Source of the DNA: Syntrophomonadaceae bacterium
GTDB taxonomy: Bacteria; Bacillota; Syntrophomonadia; Syntrophomonadales; Syntrophomonadaceae
Assembly: GCA_012520725.1 (NCBI GenBank)
Contig: JAAYNQ010000019.1
Coordinates: 1 to 53,478 of the forward strand
Reading direction: 5' to 3'
Length of the DNA stretch: 53,478 nt
Shown: positions 42,881 to 50,471 of the stretch, in pieces
Numbering within the stretch: position 1 is the stretch's first letter
How the letters are laid out: every line of letters starts with the position of its first letter
Program-made: the position numbers and the translations under genes
The notes under the pieces: generated by a model
The model's input: the letters and a program-made list of their open reading frames with translations, nothing else
Database searches by the model: none
What the model was told of the DNA's origin: nothing

Positions 42881-43522
42881 TTAAAAGACCTGTTTCCAAT
42901 CATTTATGAATCTTTCGATACCGGCCTCAGTCAGTGGGTGTTTTATCATTTGTTTTATGACCTGGTAAGGAATAGTGGCAATATGAGCACCTAAGCGGGC
43001 ACACTCCAGTACATGCAGGGGGTGTCTGATACTGGCGGCGATAACTTCGGTTTCCAGAGCATACTGCTTAAACACCGTCATAATATCCTCCAGCAGAATC
43101 AACCCGCTGTTACCGATATCATCCACCCGACCTAAAAAGGGACTGACGAAACTAGCTCCAGATCTAGCTGCCAGCAAGGCTTGATGGGCAGAAAAAACCA
43201 GGGTGGCATTAGTAGCTATACCTAAACCTTTAAAAGCATGAATAACCTTTAATCCCGTTTCTGAAAGAGGCACTTTGATAACTACATTAGGGTGGATGGC
43301 TGCTAATTCCCGTCCTTCCCTTACCATATCATGGTAATCCAGGCTTATTACTTCTGCACTTATGGGTCCGTTCACAATGCCGCAGATTTCCTGTATTACT
43401 TGGTGATAATCCCTTCCTTCCTTGGCTATCAAGGTGGGATTGGTAGTGACCCCGGCCAAAAATCCCATCTCATTAATCTCCTTGATTTCCTCTATGTTGG
43501 CGGTATCAATAAATATCTTCAA
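42881..43522 (-). CDS. fsa: Transaldolase / fructose-6-phosphate aldolase-like protein
   Basis: The 213-aa enzyme belongs to the small transaldolase group (TalC/FSA, like B. subtilis YwjH). The Schiff-base lysine is K83 in [12 protein letters not shown], and the opening [14 protein letters not shown] is diagnostic. Whether the reaction is transaldolase or fructose-6-phosphate aldolase cannot be decided by sequence reading alone. The start is TTG 43522, with AAGGAGG upstream. It lies 37 bp after fba and 19 bp before glpX, so these three carbohydrate genes are co-transcribed. Confidence 0.9.
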
Positions 43523-43559
43523 TAACCATCCTCCTTTCCATAACTACTGCTTACGCTAT

Positions 43560-44417
43560 TTACCATGCTCTTTCACTGCTGCCGAAGACCCTTATTTTTT
43601 GGCGTATGGTCTCTATCGCTACTTCCCGGGCTGGCCCCAATATCTGGCGAGGATCAATTTCCTTGGGTTTTTCTGACATTACCTGGCGCATAGCACCCAC
43701 AAAGGCTTCGCGAATATTAGTATCAATATTCACCTTACGCACTCCCAGTTTAATGGCTTGCTGTATGGTTTCATCCGGCACTCCAGAAGAACCATGCAGT
43801 ACAATTGGAATATTGACCAGGCTCTTGATTTTTTGAAGTCGTTCCAAATCCAGCCTTGGTTCTCCTTTGTATTGTCCATGAGCGGTACCGATAGCAACAG
43901 CCAGGCTTTTAATACCGGTCTGTTCTACAAAATACTTAGCTTCCTCGGGGTCAGTATACATGGCTTCTTTTTCACTTACATGAATATCATCCTCGGTTCC
44001 ACCTATTTTGCCCAATTCTGCTTCTACCGAGACCCCTATCGGCCGGGCGATTTCCAGTACTTTTTTGCTCATAGCAATATTTTCTTCCAGGGGCAGCTTG
44101 GATCCGTCGTACATTACGGAAGTAAAGCCGCTACGAATACATCTTATCACCTGCTCAAAATCAGTGCCGTGATCCAAATGCAAAGCGATGGGAACCCGGC
44201 TGGACTCTGCCGCTAATTTGACTAAACCGGTCAAAAAGGTCAGCCCGGCATATTTTATAGCTCCCTGACTGGCTTGCATGATAACCGGAGCCTGTTCTTT
44301 TTCTGCCGCCGTCATTATGGCCTGTACTATCTCCATGTTGTTGGCATTAAAGGCTCCTACGGCATACCCGCCTTTTTCCGCTCGTTCCAGCAGTTCATCC
44401 ACTGTTACCAGTGCCAT
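43560..44417 (-). CDS. fba: Class II fructose-bisphosphate aldolase
   Basis: This zinc enzyme cleaves or forms fructose 1,6-bisphosphate. The 285-aa chain carries the zinc and catalytic motifs LHLDHGTDFE, VEAELGKIGG, GTAHGQYKG and VLHGSSGVPD. The start is ATG 44417, with AGAGGTG at 7 nt; a GTG 9 bp upstream overlaps the ribosome site. It is followed by fsa and glpX and preceded by spo0F, the order seen in B. subtilis. A tagatose-bisphosphate aldolase is the only close alternative and is unlikely in this context. Confidence 0.96.
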   Translation of the reverse strand: MALVTVDELLERAEKGGYAVGAFNANNMEIVQAIMTAAEKEQAPVIMQASQGAIKYAGLTFLTGLVKLAAESSRVPIALHLDHGTDFEQVIRCIRSGFTSVMYDGSKLPLEENIAMSKKVLEIARPIGVSVEAELGKIGGTEDDIHVSEKEAMYTDPEEAKYFVEQTGIKSLAVAIGTAHGQYKGEPRLDLERLQKIKSLVNIPIVLHGSSGVPDETIQQAIKLGVRKVNIDTNIREAFVGAMRQVMSEKPKEIDPRQILGPAREVAIETIRQKIRVFGSSERAW

Positions 44418-44450
44418 GAAAATCACCTCTTCAATTAATTATAATTATTT

Positions 44451-44813
44451 TTATCTTCCCGCCAGTTTATTTACAATGTCTTTTAAGTTCATAATATCGA
44501 AGGGTTTAGTAACGCATTTTTTAACCCCTGCTTCCAATGCATTTTTGATTACGTCCATTTCTCCATAGGCGGTCATCATTATTATGGACATATCTGGATG
44601 CAGGGAGAGAATCTGTTTTGAGGCTTCCAGACCATTAATATTCGGCATCTTCATATCCATTAAAATAATATCCGGCTGAAATTCTCCCACCTTGTTAATG
44701 GCTTCCCGTCCATCAGCTGCAGTGTTTACTATCCAGTTGTCCTTTTTAAAAAGTTCTTCCAGTAGTCTGCGAACTCCTTTCTGATCATCTACCACCAATA
44801 TCTTCATCTGCAT
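44451..44813 (-). CDS. spo0F: Spo0F-type response regulator
   Basis: A single receiver domain of 120 aa with acidic pair D9-D10, phosphoacceptor D53 (LMDMKMP), T81 (TAYGE) and K103 (TKPFD), and no output domain. In Bacillus, Spo0F passes phosphate from sporulation kinases to Spo0B and then Spo0A. Many Clostridia lack Spo0F or Spo0B and phosphorylate Spo0A directly, so the partner here is uncertain. The assignment rests on length, motifs and the conserved pyrG...spo0F-fba neighbourhood. ATG 44813 has AGGGGA upstream. Confidence 0.88.
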   Translation of the reverse strand: MQMKILVVDDQKGVRRLLEELFKKDNWIVNTAADGREAINKVGEFQPDIILMDMKMPNINGLEASKQILSLHPDMSIIMMTAYGEMDVIKNALEAGVKKCVTKPFDIMNLKDIVNKLAGR

Positions 44814-44867
44814 TAAACTTCCCCTCTCTTTACTGGATACTATCTAATTACCCTAAGCCTGGAATTA

Positions 44868-45446
44868 TTAAATCATCATGCCCGACACCAATAAAGCCAG
44901 AGACAAAAAGGCAATCAGTACCAGAATAAAAAATACCGCTCCCGGCAGAATAAACAAGAAAAAGGCCTGGCTGCTTTGAATCAAAAGGGATTCCCTTATC
45001 CCTATGACTTGTAGTATTACAACCCACAAAAAAGCCAATACAGAAATAGCAGCATTAAAGTTGTTCAGATTTAACAGAGTCAAAGCATACTGTAATGGAG
45101 GAGACAGTATGCCCGGAACAAAAGCAAAAGCCAAGCAGGTCAGAATCCCACGGCCATTGGCTTGCCTATACAACAGTTCTCCCAGCAGATTATATATGGC
45201 TGCTGCAGCTGCCAAAGCCAGCAGAGAAAACAGCAGTCCTAATCCTAAATATACTCCTATATATCCCTGGGGTAAAGGTACCCCCGGCCCCTGATGCAAA
45301 TTAATCCCCAGCTTGATAAGCATATTTCCCAGCACGGTGACGATAAAGGCGGTCAAAGCCATAAGCAAGGGTTGGCTGCTGCTCAAATATCTTAAGGTAG
45401 CCAGGGGCTGAAATACTATACCGTACAAGATCTCAGTAGCGGTCAA
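44868..45446 (-). CDS. Yip1-family membrane protein
   Basis: The 192-aa protein has about five transmembrane helices spread over its whole length, with the FQPLATLRYL opening and polar LLGELLYRQANGRG loop common in bacterial Yip1-domain proteins. Its function is unknown. The start is TTG 45446, overlapping the sppA stop by 4 bp with GGAGGG upstream, so translation is coupled to SppA. It closes the femX-alr-sppA-yip1 cluster; a 54-bp gap then leads to spo0F. Confidence 0.8.
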   Translation of the reverse strand: MTATEILYGIVFQPLATLRYLSSSQPLLMALTAFIVTVLGNMLIKLGINLHQGPGVPLPQGYIGVYLGLGLLFSLLALAAAAAIYNLLGELLYRQANGRGILTCLAFAFVPGILSPPLQYALTLLNLNNFNAAISVLAFLWVVILQVIGIRESLLIQSSQAFFLFILPGAVFFILVLIAFLSLALLVSGMMI

Positions 45447-46381
45447 CCTTGAACCCTCCCTGGATAAATATATTTTAGTCCCGGATAGCCTAAATCCAAC
45501 CTGCCGGAGTTAAGTACCTGTCCGCCCGGTACTAATCTTTTAATAAACTGGTCCCAGTAAAGGCTGCCATTTAATACTTCGATTCTGCTGTTTGAGTCCA
45601 AGCCGGCAATGGAGCGAGCTACATCAATAGCATCATAATAATTGCCCAGGCTATCCACCAAGCCCATTTCCAATCCCATACGCCCGGAAAAAATCCGTCC
45701 ATCTGCAATTTGCATCAATTTATCCTCTTCTATTTTACCTCGACGCCCACGTCGAACCTGGTCTAAAAATTGCTCATAGGAATCGTCTACTATATCCTGT
45801 AATAATTTTCTCTCCTCAGGGGTCATATCCCGATAGGAAGATCCGATATCCTTATGGGGGGCACTTTTGATCACCTCTTGTTGAAGGCCTAGTTTTTCAT
45901 ATAAACCTTCTATATTGGTTAATTCCATAATTACCCCGATACTGCCAGTCAAGCTGCCTCCATTGGCTACTATATGATCACTGCTACAGGCAATCCAATA
46001 CCCCCCGGAGGCACATACCTCTCCCATGGATACTACAACCTTTTTACCGGCACTACGCAACTTATCCAATTCTATTCCTATTTCCTGGGAAGCTACGGCG
46101 GTACCTCCAGGACTATTTATCCTCAATAACAGCACTTTAATATCTTCTCTTTCCCGGGCCGTTTTTATTGCATCCATTATATCATCGGAACTGGCCCCGG
46201 CTGAGCCAAAAAGATTGGTGGGTGATTCAGCACTTATGGCTCCGTTGATTTCAATTACACCTACGGTATCAGGACCATAAGCTGCAGCAGGCCCCCCCTT
46301 TTCTTGAACCTGCCATATGGACAGACCGGCCATGGCCAAGAAGAATAAGGCCAGCAAGAGCACCACTATCTTTTTATGCAT
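45443..46381 (-). CDS. sppA: Signal peptide peptidase SppA (serine protease)
   Basis: SppA degrades leftover signal peptides in the membrane. The 312-aa protein has one N-terminal transmembrane helix (about 5-24) and a ClpP-like fold with INSPGGTAVASQEI, the nucleophile region SMGEVCASGGYWIA and LTGSIGVIMEL. The general-base lysine is expected in the next segment (EVIKSAPHKDIG). It is the short Gram-positive form with a single domain. The start is ATG 46381 with GGGGGGAG; a TTG 18 bp upstream would contain that ribosome site. It overlaps the racemase gene by 8 bp and yip1 by 4 bp. Confidence 0.94.
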   Translation of the reverse strand: MHKKIVVLLLALFFLAMAGLSIWQVQEKGGPAAAYGPDTVGVIEINGAISAESPTNLFGSAGASSDDIMDAIKTAREREDIKVLLLRINSPGGTAVASQEIGIELDKLRSAGKKVVVSMGEVCASGGYWIACSSDHIVANGGSLTGSIGVIMELTNIEGLYEKLGLQQEVIKSAPHKDIGSSYRDMTPEERKLLQDIVDDSYEQFLDQVRRGRRGKIEEDKLMQIADGRIFSGRMGLEMGLVDSLGNYYDAIDVARSIAGLDSNSRIEVLNGSLYWDQFIKRLVPGGQVLNSGRLDLGYPGLKYIYPGRVQG

Positions 46382-47576
46382 AAATTCTCCCCCCAACAAT
46401 TTGTTCAGCTCTAATGGGATCCAGGTCTTCCTCTTTAATATACCTTTCCCGGCACCGGTAATATCTGGGAATCAGCTCCCCGGCCAGGGTCTTGCGCAGG
46501 GGAACCTCTACCTCATCCTCCAATGCCAGGGGGTCCTCCTGGGGAACCTCAACCAGCGCCATTTGCATGAAAACCTTGCCTCGAAGCGGATAGCTTTTTC
46601 CATTGATCACCACGCTGCGAATAAATCTATTCCAGCCTAGAAAAGCCAGTATGTTCTTCAATAAAATTTTAATCAAGTCCAGCCATCCGCTGGGTGGGTT
46701 TCCCACCTCCAGGGCCAAGCCATTAATGAAACCCACTGGAATTACGGCAATTTGAGCATCCCGCATTAAACGGTAGGTGCCATAATAACCTAAAGTGCTT
46801 CCTTTTCTAACTTTTTTTATGGATATTATTCGACACTTATATTTAAAAGGATCCATTAAATTCAAAGCTCCTGACACTCCGACCGGGTAATGCCCGGAAA
46901 GCAAAGTGCCAATCCGAACTGCATTCATTTGCATATGGGGGTAGAGGGCCAGTACCGCGCTGCTGGCACAGTGTTGCCAGGAAAAATGATATCCATGAGC
47001 TTGCAATTCCTCTATGGCAGCCTGGAATAAGCTGAATTGGCGCTGGCAGCTTTGATGGGATAAGGCTTTGGCCATATGAGTATATATACCATCCATTTTA
47101 ATCAGTGGATTTTGACTTAAATTGTGGCATATCTCCAGTGCTTGCCGGCATTCCAGGCCAAAGCGTCCCAGGCCGGTTTCAATTTTTAGGTGTACCTTCA
47201 GGTTTAGCCCGTATTCTTTTGATACCCCATCAAGCAGTGAGGCATCGTGGAAGGAAGCCAGGGTAAGGGTTATTCCCTGAGCGGCCGCTAACCTCACCTC
47301 TTCTTCCCCGATCACCGGACTCAAGATCATTATTTCGGATTTAATGCCCCTCTTTCTAAGTTTTAAGGCTTCCTCCAGATAGGTCACAGCAAAAAAATCC
47401 ACTCCCTGGCTTTCCAGGATACTGGCTGTGCCGGCTGCCCCGTGTCCGTAAGCATTAGCCTTTACAACTGCTATCAGCCTTACCCCGTCCTTGATCAGGG
47501 TTCTAACCTCCCGCAGATTCTGCACAATTGCTTCCACATCTACCTCTACCCATTGCTCCCTTGGCTTGTACTCCAC
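46374..47576 (-). CDS. Alanine racemase-like PLP enzyme with divergent C-terminal half
   Basis: The N-terminal barrel has the PLP lysine K39 (AVVKANAYGHG) and R138 (LGRFGL). The C-terminal domain keeps the catalytic-type tyrosine Y265 (YYGTY). Other conserved parts are changed. The substrate-side CMDQ motif reads FMQM (336-339), GYADG reads GFING, and a leucine-rich insert of about 25 residues (about 295-320) separates two strands. It probably racemises an amino acid, but alanine is not assured. GTG 47576 lies 2 bp after the femX stop, with AGGAGG upstream. The link to FemX suggests a D-amino acid for the wall. The 400-aa length is slightly above average. Confidence 0.8.
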   Translation of the reverse strand: MEYKPREQWVEVDVEAIVQNLREVRTLIKDGVRLIAVVKANAYGHGAAGTASILESQGVDFFAVTYLEEALKLRKRGIKSEIMILSPVIGEEEVRLAAAQGITLTLASFHDASLLDGVSKEYGLNLKVHLKIETGLGRFGLECRQALEICHNLSQNPLIKMDGIYTHMAKALSHQSCQRQFSLFQAAIEELQAHGYHFSWQHCASSAVLALYPHMQMNAVRIGTLLSGHYPVGVSGALNLMDPFKYKCRIISIKKVRKGSTLGYYGTYRLMRDAQIAVIPVGFINGLALEVGNPPSGWLDLIKILLKNILAFLGWNRFIRSVVINGKSYPLRGKVFMQMALVEVPQEDPLALEDEVEVPLRKTLAGELIPRYYRCRERYIKEEDLDPIRAEQIVGGRIYA

Positions 47577-47578
47577 TC

Positions 47579-48658
47579 CTATTCCTCCTGACCCCTTTTT
47601 TTAGCCGATCTGCTTATGTTCTGATAGAGGGGCAGAAAATTGTTCCACAGCCAATAAAAAAAGGGCGAATAGACCTGGTCCCATTCCCCAATAAATTCGG
47701 TCATTTGACCTCCAAAACCCTTTTTAAAACGATATAGCCCGTAAAGGGGATTGCTTTCATCCAAATCCCCGGATACTCCTCTAAAGTCATAAAGAGAACA
47801 ACCCTTTTCTTTGGCCCATTGAATCATAGCCCATTGGATTAGATAGTTGGGCATGTAACTTCTTTTATTATTACTGGAAGCCCCATACAGGTACCATACT
47901 TTATTCCCGGTAATCATAGCCAGGGTGGCAGCTATCAGATCTCCCTCATGTTCGGCTAAAAAAATTTGAGCAAATCCATTTTCAAGCAGGTAATCCCATA
48001 TCCATTCAAAGTATTCATAACCTCTAATCAAAAATTTATCCCGGCGGGCGGTTTCCAGCAGAATATCATAAAAAGCCTGCAAGTCACCTTTGTCCGTGGC
48101 TATACGGATCTTTACCCCTTTTCTGCCGGCCAAACGCAGGTTGTACCTCCACTTGCTATGCATATTTTCTAATAGTTTTATTTCGCTGGGGGTGATATCC
48201 AGACGAAAGACAAAGCGGGGTTGTACTCCTTCAAAATTAAAACCGGTTTCGTTTTCCTTGAACCCACATTCCCTTAAAATATTGCTATATTGGGTATTAT
48301 CCTTAATAATATCGGGATCAATTTTAAGGAAAATAGCTCCGTGTTCCCGGGCTACTTTTTTAGCTCCTTCAAAAAGATGGTGGTTTAAAACCGGCTGGTC
48401 GATATCCACAACTGGCCCCCGAGGTGAATAGAAAATACTTTTTTTTAAACCAGGTATGGGTAGTTTCCTTTTCAGTATCAGTAAGGAAGCTTTTATCTCA
48501 CCATCTTCCTCCAAGACCAGGGGCAGCTTTTCCCAGCCCATACCCTCTTTTACCTGACCCCATTCCCACAATTGCAGGAAATGTCCCCGGGGATGATGGA
48601 TAACAAAAGCATTATATCTATCCTTTTCTTTTTCATCTATAACCCTGGTAGTAAACAT
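47579..48658 (-). CDS. FemA/FemB-family aminoacyltransferase
   Basis: Fem enzymes use aminoacyl-tRNA to add amino acids to the stem peptide of lipid II or to proteins. The 359-aa chain has two GNAT-like halves with FLQLWEWGQVKEGMGW near the N-terminus, KWRYNLRLAGRKGV in the middle and YLIQWAMIQWAKEKG with YDFRGVSGD near the C-terminus, all typical of the family. No long coiled-coil arm of the FemA type is obvious, so it is closer to FemX or MurM-like lone enzymes. ATG 48658 has AAGGGAG. It leads a tightly packed cluster with a racemase. The amino acid added is unknown. Confidence 0.92.
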   Translation of the reverse strand: MFTTRVIDEKEKDRYNAFVIHHPRGHFLQLWEWGQVKEGMGWEKLPLVLEEDGEIKASLLILKRKLPIPGLKKSIFYSPRGPVVDIDQPVLNHHLFEGAKKVAREHGAIFLKIDPDIIKDNTQYSNILRECGFKENETGFNFEGVQPRFVFRLDITPSEIKLLENMHSKWRYNLRLAGRKGVKIRIATDKGDLQAFYDILLETARRDKFLIRGYEYFEWIWDYLLENGFAQIFLAEHEGDLIAATLAMITGNKVWYLYGASSNNKRSYMPNYLIQWAMIQWAKEKGCSLYDFRGVSGDLDESNPLYGLYRFKKGFGGQMTEFIGEWDQVYSPFFYWLWNNFLPLYQNISRSAKKRGQEE

Positions 48659-48756
48659 TTTTTCGCTCCCTTGTCCATATTATCTTAGTCTCACCATAAG
48701 CGGGCCTCGATATCCTCCAATACATACTTTGACCACCACTCTCCAGAACCATCAGG

Positions 48757-48776
48757 CAAGTGTCTATCTACACTTG
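48757..48776. terminator. Hairpin between pyrG and femX (weak terminator candidate)
   Basis: CAAGTGT (48757-48763) pairs with ACACTTG (48770-48776) around a 6-nt loop in the 150-bp gap. There is no T-run, so it may be a processing or regulatory hairpin. Nothing else stands out in 48659-48809. Confidence 0.35.
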
Positions 48777-48809
48777 AAATGAGGGCTAAGAAGGATCATG
48801 CCCTGATAT

Positions 48810-50471
<1,662 letters not shown>

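Follow-up and report, generated by a model that had tools for sequence, protein, structure and literature searches.

AlrX, a conserved, probably active subfamily of racemases with a putatively rebuilt substrate gate and a link to FemAB

Alanine racemases (Alr) such as those of C. difficile (4LUS/4LUY), Thermoanaerobacter (4Y2W) and Geobacillus (1SFT) are two-domain, fold type III PLP enzymes. Excerpts of two reports describe the substrate entryway of M. tuberculosis Alr as layered, with a middle layer of Arg316', Ile362, Arg296' and Asp177 and an inner layer of Tyr271', Tyr364, Tyr290' and Ala176 (PMC3485190, PMC4517790). According to the same excerpts, Alr is restricted to alanine by the gap of about 2.7 A that two inner tyrosines (Tyr265' and Tyr354 of Geobacillus) leave between them; Tyr354 is in addition a ligand of the PLP phosphate, and its position is occupied by Thr in Lyr, Ala in Bar and Asn in VanT (PMC3485190, PMC4517790). 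AlrTt, which has Gln at that position, is still an alanine racemase (excerpt of PMC4517790), so a single change there does not by itself alter the substrate. Further excerpts describe Asp313' as acting through a water on PLP and substrate, with Asn natural at its position in broad-spectrum racemases (PMC10288493), and the wide site of BsrV as able to accommodate stem peptides, for which there would be clashes in Alr (PMC7890096).

We describe a related protein, AlrX, encoded in the window, by which we mean the whole 53,478-nucleotide stretch of DNA that was analysed. The alrX ORF begins with GTG at 47576 and its stop ends at 46374, within a minus-strand run of genes that we take to be argS, metallo-hydrolase, pyrG, femAB, alrX, sppA, Yip1-like, response regulator, fba, tal, glpX and rho; alrX, femAB, sppA, Yip1, the regulator and the hydrolase were scanned with profiles, and the remaining neighbours are named from their protein sequences. 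A scan of 43400-48900 for promoters and terminators returned no more sites than shuffled sequence. The features discussed below are as follows.

46374..47576, minus strand: alrX, a 400-aa alanine-racemase-fold protein (Pfam domains, NCBI models, predicted structure)
47460..47462, minus strand: Lys39 codon; the residue is the PLP lysine and a catalytic base (aligned to Alr Lys39; 138/138 AlrX)
46785..46787, minus strand: Tyr264 codon; the residue is the second catalytic base and corresponds to Tyr265 of Geobacillus Alr (138/138 AlrX)
46719..46733, minus strand: GFING, residues 282-286 (GYADG in canonical Alr; exact GFING in 2/138)
46620..46694, minus strand: family insert, residues 295-319, with a predicted helix at 298-312 that includes Asp300, Lys303 and Lys307
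46560..46571, minus strand: FMQM, residues 336-339, in place of canonical CMDQ with its Met unchanged (alignment)
46476..46499, minus strand: deletion site of the canonical Ile352/Tyr354 segment, about residues 360-367 (alignment and control model)
47579..48658, minus strand: femAB-family gene, 359 aa, ending 2 bases before the alrX start

The genome that holds the window (2.64 Mb, 212 contigs, 99.99% complete) contains one racemase match besides AlrX, a canonical Alr of 374 residues (L002) with CMDQ, GYADG and INYEI. A first-pass annotation, which had read the gene as a racemase with altered substrate-side motifs, had proposed looking for just such a second alr.

To count residues we used an alignment of 157 distinct racemases, 138 AlrX and 19 canonical, with identical proteins counted once. 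The canonical proteins are a chosen set of fetched sequences, and the alignment omits racemase ORFs shorter than 360 aa (truncated or frameshifted, for example L082, L084 and L119) as well as a VanT-like fusion (L038:1395-3572). Lys39, Tyr43, Arg136, His166, Ser204 and Tyr265 are invariant in all 138 AlrX. Met312 is kept in 132, and the carbamyl-lysine position is Lys in 129. Arg219, which contacts the PLP pyridine nitrogen in Alr, is kept in 134 of the 138; Ser replaces it at four loci (L068, L201, L202, L210), where altered cofactor electronics are possible. The first-pass annotation had listed K39, R138 and Y265 as retained in the window's protein: the lysine and the arginine are at those residues, and the tyrosine is residue 264, aligned to Geobacillus Tyr265, with residue 265 itself variable across the family.

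Arg290 of Geobacillus, which we take to be Arg296' of M. tuberculosis Alr in keeping with the alignment, is present in 19/19 canonical proteins and 0/138 AlrX. The reported replacement of CMDQ by FMQM was correct and reflects a family-wide loss of Cys and Asp, the Met (Met312) being retained in 132: Asp313 occurs in none of the 138, its position being Gln in 123 and Glu in 8, and Cys311 likewise in none, its position being Gly in 61, Phe in 51, Ala in 12 and Ser in 11. GFING, which the first-pass annotation also reported, is indeed present and is no family trait: the Asp of GYADG is retained in 121/138 AlrX and is Asn in 3, and the exact motif is confined to the window's protein and one congeneric relative. 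The largest change had been missed, namely loss of the C-terminal segment with Ile352 and Tyr354, accompanied by that of Arg290. This segment measures 29-30 residues in canonical Alr vs 8 in 137 AlrX; the remaining AlrX, with 0 residues, is a protein cut off by a contig end. Tyr354 and Ile352 are present in 18/19 and 19/19 canonical proteins, respectively, and absent from 138/138 AlrX, a count that is true by definition as the short Tyr354 segment set AlrX membership; the insert and the Arg290 and CMDQ changes are traits separate from that criterion.

The gain of about 25 hydrophobic residues noted at first pass corresponds to an insert at about residues 295-319 that is 25 residues long. Inserts of 18-33 residues (25 in 104 proteins) occur in 138/138 AlrX vs 0/19 canonical proteins, far beyond chance, so that an altered racemase with an insert is a real and family-wide type. 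Of the 44 AlrX ORFs from the first loci, 43 have an insert of 25 residues and one an insert of 26, and the Tyr354 segment is missing from all (L031 is cut off by the contig end). Charges are conserved at three positions of the insert: Asp300 in 120/138, Lys or Arg303 in 128/138 and Lys or Arg307 in 129/138.

An AlphaFold2 model of AlrX (37 AlrX sequences; pLDDT 89.9) places a 15-residue helix at 298-312 of the insert, where blocks score 74-86, a moderate confidence. The predicted helix is charged and amphipathic and lies just after C-terminal-domain entryway residues; we infer that it lines or covers the entryway in the dimer. It is short and charged for a transmembrane span, which makes the membrane association raised at first pass unlikely in the form of a transmembrane anchor; the helix may make peripheral membrane contact. 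The canonical Alr of the same genome, modelled as a control (pLDDT 90.7), has no helix at the insert position and has helices 347-354 and 358-363 around residues 357 (Ile352) and 359 (Tyr354), both of which are absent from the AlrX model. The best 50 solved-structure matches to the AlrX model are all racemases of Alr fold, and Foldseek agrees; the model matches C. difficile Alr 4luy_A (mutant K271T) with Z 39.0 and an rmsd of 2.3 over 355 residues, Thermoanaerobacter Alr with Z 38.0 and VanTg with Z 34.4.

Profile searches gave a divided answer. AlrX has the two-domain Alr fold by Pfam (Ala_racemase_N, 189 bits; Ala_racemase_C, 53 bits) and scores 240.8 bits against the TIGR00492 alanine racemase equivalog, above its cut-off of 168; six other AlrX (L086, L097, L045, L068, L192, L216) score 175.4-281.8 bits. 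Since all seven exceed the cut-off, automatic annotation would call them alanine racemase. The match does not run along the whole profile: the best stretch is 1-292 of 369 in the window's AlrX vs 1-368 in canonical L002, and it ends at position 287-295 in all seven AlrX tested. These whole-profile results and the entryway residues indicate that AlrX should not be filed as an alanine racemase proper. Most matched parts share 31-36% identity with the canonical Alr of relatives. AlrX resembles Alr in fold, in keeping Lys39, Tyr265, Arg136, Arg219 and Met312, and in its best structural matches, and differs from it in lacking Arg290 and the Tyr354/Ile352 segment, in its changed CMDQ, in the extra helix and in the company of FemAB.

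AlrX differs from other named racemases as well. VanT (the C-terminal domain of vanT-G, 4ECL) is an Alr-fold protein of wall function with a changed Tyr354 position, Asn in the excerpted accounts; AlrX, in contrast, lacks a membrane domain and is missing the whole Tyr354 segment, not one residue. Its scores against VanT models are 149.9-201 bits with cut-offs of 460-900 (vanT-G: 201 vs 460), and at 400 aa, with the barrel starting at residue 8, it has no VanT N-terminal membrane domain. BsrV, Bar and Lyr are similar to AlrX in a widened entryway (predicted in AlrX), a replaced Tyr354 and a changed Asp313 position, which is Asn in Bsr according to excerpts. Unlike AlrX, they keep the helix that it deletes, and BsrV is periplasmic; the AlrX position of Asp313 is Gln in 123/138. 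The first barrel strand of the AlrX model, at 8-13, leaves no room for a Bsr-type export signal peptide. Proteins of the YggS/PLPBP type consist of the barrel only; AlrX has, by Pfam match and in the model, the C-terminal Alr domain that they lack.

AlrX is widespread and appears as a coherent group. A match at E <1e-70 was found in 45 of 61 genomes (the window's own and relatives), and 102 of the 299 genomes sampled from the phylum gave matches to the C-terminal alignment (E up to 1e-8). Scanning named genomes with one AlrX pattern yielded 55 loci, mostly in Syntrophomonadaceae, including Syntrophomonas wolfei, S. zehnderi and Thermosyntropha lipolytica, with some in Peptococcaceae and Clostridia MAGs. 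A tree of 80 AlrX (<62% mutual identity) and the 19 canonical proteins was built from barrel columns before GYADG, which exclude the traits described above, by a quick search without bootstrap; AlrX and canonical Alr fall on opposite sides of one branch (SH-aLRT 99), and AlrX as one clade depends on the midpoint root. The dN/dS of AlrX in four pairs is 0.16, 0.17, 0.17 and 0.23, one of these pairs having a high dS (1.49); with that proviso the values reject decay without function. In one pair (G000 vs G003), FemAB has a dN/dS of 0.08 and canonical Alr one of 0.13. AlrX diverges faster than FemAB (79% vs 90% identity in one pair), which counts against the reading favoured below.

The femAB gene ending 2 bases upstream of alrX encodes the only FemAB match in the window's genome. 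Members of the FemAB family attach amino acids to the stem peptides of peptidoglycan precursors, FemAB being a lipid II branching transferase. The window's protein belongs to the family by Pfam (204.5 bits; gathering cut-off 24), and its best named NCBI model is FemX (NF047883), where 167.9 bits against a cut-off of 500 leave it outside the equivalog; it differs from FemAB/FemX/MurM in sitting in a genome whose MurE bears the meso-DAP motif. In 43 of the 44 AlrX loci of relatives FemAB lies upstream on the same strand (exception, L043). Across the 299 phylum genomes, 100 have both proteins, 2 AlrX only, 17 FemAB only and 180 neither. FemAB is thus found in 100/102 AlrX genomes vs 17/197 others (Fisher p 2e-58, not a true probability given that the genomes are related), and by family code in 36/37 AlrX families. 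Judged by the best FemAB match per genome, 88 of these 102 have FemAB within 2.5 kb of AlrX and on its strand. Of the 14 non-adjacent genomes, 12 have FemAB elsewhere and none was found in the other 2, which are 75% and 86% complete; at least 3 of the 14 (G072, G188, G317) have AlrX at the end of a contig and are uninformative on adjacency.

At L160, L180, L192 and L193, AlrX lies apart from FemAB, which is elsewhere in the same genome, and is located downstream of pnp between genes that are presumably polysaccharide deacetylase- and dUTPase-like. AlrX precedes FemAB in G053 and G097. Because FemAB persists elsewhere or in reversed order in such genomes, the link survives rearrangement. G053 is among the 17 FemAB-only genomes, and there a diverged lid-less racemase that the AlrX search missed adjoins FemAB. 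Within the window's family and order, the four FemAB-less genomes (G014, G020, G042, G023) are without a full AlrX, G023 (67% complete) having part of one where a contig ends; in G032 a FemAB (46% identity) occurs in the absence of AlrX. The FemAB upstream of AlrX in G006 is split into two open frames (L030:535-1486, plus strand), indicating a frameshift or sequencing error.

A separate racemase was found in 65/65 AlrX genomes searched with the canonical protein; these were hand-picked from the 102 AlrX genomes, are all at least 98% complete and do not include every such genome. The match extends to query residue 370-374 in 64 genomes and to 350 in G077, and in G198 the matches lie in open frames of 725 and 843 residues. 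AlrX as the sole racemase of its genome is therefore rejected for the genomes checked; in G021 (93% complete, outside that set) we found AlrX only.

Walls of the meso-DAP type are usually cross-linked without a bridge. The MurE of the window's genome has DNPR, given in an excerpt as the motif of meso-DAP MurE enzymes (PMC3829189), and this counts against a role for AlrX in a peptide branch. DapF and MurI are both present in that genome, and MurI is found in 58 of the 61 genomes. No DapF match was obtained in 12 of these (G007, G016, G017, G019, G020, G022, G024, G025, G026, G031, G054, G060), for which another route to meso-DAP, or an LL-DAP wall, is possible. The MurE motif and the presence of DapF and MurI do not say what the window's FemAB adds.

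Sequence and predicted structure together show that AlrX has kept the fold of alanine racemase, with which it probably shares its origin, and the two catalytic bases, along with most residues of the PLP-binding set and those contributed by the partner subunit. As the catalytic set is kept and the gate residues are lost, AlrX would retain the chemistry and lose the size filter. The reading we favour, and give somewhat better than even chances, is that AlrX forms a catalytically active dimer, a PLP-dependent racemase whose gate has been opened, which acts on another or a larger amino acid and works with FemAB at a peptide-branch step. With the lid segment (Tyr354, Ile352) gone and Arg290 and Asp313 replaced, the narrow, alanine-only entryway would stand open and admit such a substrate. 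Co-occurrence and gene order suggest the partnership with FemAB, in which AlrX might, for example, supply or set the D form of the residue used there, stem-peptide D-alanine presumably coming from the separate canonical Alr. The different substrate proposed at first pass thus gains indirect support: excerpts of published work connect the lost residues Tyr354, Ile352, Arg290 and Asp313 with specificity for alanine, with the entryway or with the water network of PLP and substrate (PMC4517790, PMC3485190, PMC10288493), and every AlrX genome checked has a separate racemase. The loss of dimer-dependent activity suggested alongside it is disfavoured by retention of the partner-subunit residues Tyr265 and Met312 and by the low dN/dS of all four pairs.

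That AlrX is simply a second ordinary alanine racemase, delivering extra wall D-alanine near the FemAB/lipid II machinery with its specificity unaltered, would accord with the full set of catalytic residues and the score above the equivalog cut-off. We consider this unlikely, since a canonical Alr is already present, the profile match stops at about position 295 of 369, and the changes are uniform in 138 sequences of many families, not scattered. Constant FemAB company, together with the lost Asp313 and Tyr354-PLP phosphate contact, could suit a racemase-like pseudoenzyme serving FemAB as a structural or sensing partner; such a protein would not need the two catalytic bases that all 138 AlrX keep, nor the Arg219 kept by 134, and we regard the idea as distinctly doubtful. 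Very improbable is substitution for another wall racemase or epimerase, DapF (diaminopimelate) or MurI (glutamate). DapF-less genomes with AlrX do exist, including the single-contig, at least 98% complete G007 and G025, but the window's genome has both enzymes, MurI is nearly ubiquitous, and three of the 12 DapF-less genomes (G020, G054, G060) also lack AlrX; we rejected a stand-in role on these grounds.

FemAB relatives take L-aminoacyl-tRNA, which makes it hard to see why a racemase would be needed. A bolder reading, which we rate as improbable, is that AlrX acts on a carrier-held aminoacyl group of the FemAB pathway, the charged helix docking so that FemAB and AlrX build a D-configured branch. 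The carrier would be lipid II or UDP-MurNAc-peptide, bearing the branch residue, or else the aminoacyl-tRNA of FemAB, and the lid would be gone for this purpose. We know of no such step, a D-configured branch built by FemAB and a racemase, in peptidoglycan synthesis.

AlrX is, then, a conserved and distinct subfamily of racemases, probably active, whose substrate gate is rebuilt and which is tied to FemAB; its company with FemAB in many bacteria suggests an unrecognised cell-wall building step. Automatic annotation hides a widespread racemase paralogue behind the label 'alanine racemase', and counting 'alr' genes overstates the number of alanine racemases. If the favoured reading is true, the bacteria concerned have an undescribed way of setting or using chirality in a peptidoglycan branch, and their genomes yield a specific, testable prediction on the wall chemistry of poorly studied anaerobes. 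We found no paper describing the AlrX-FemAB pair, or peptidoglycan and alanine racemase in Syntrophomonas, in the open-licence PMC literature, a partial source that is no proof of the pair being unpublished.

The fusion omitted from the alignment (L038:1395-3572, plus strand) is a 725-aa VanT-like protein with a membrane part and a racemase, encoded on contig G037:C63 in the same stretch as that genome's AlrX. It scores 574.5 bits against the VanT-G catalytic model (cut-off 460) and 689 against vanT-CELN (cut-off 900).
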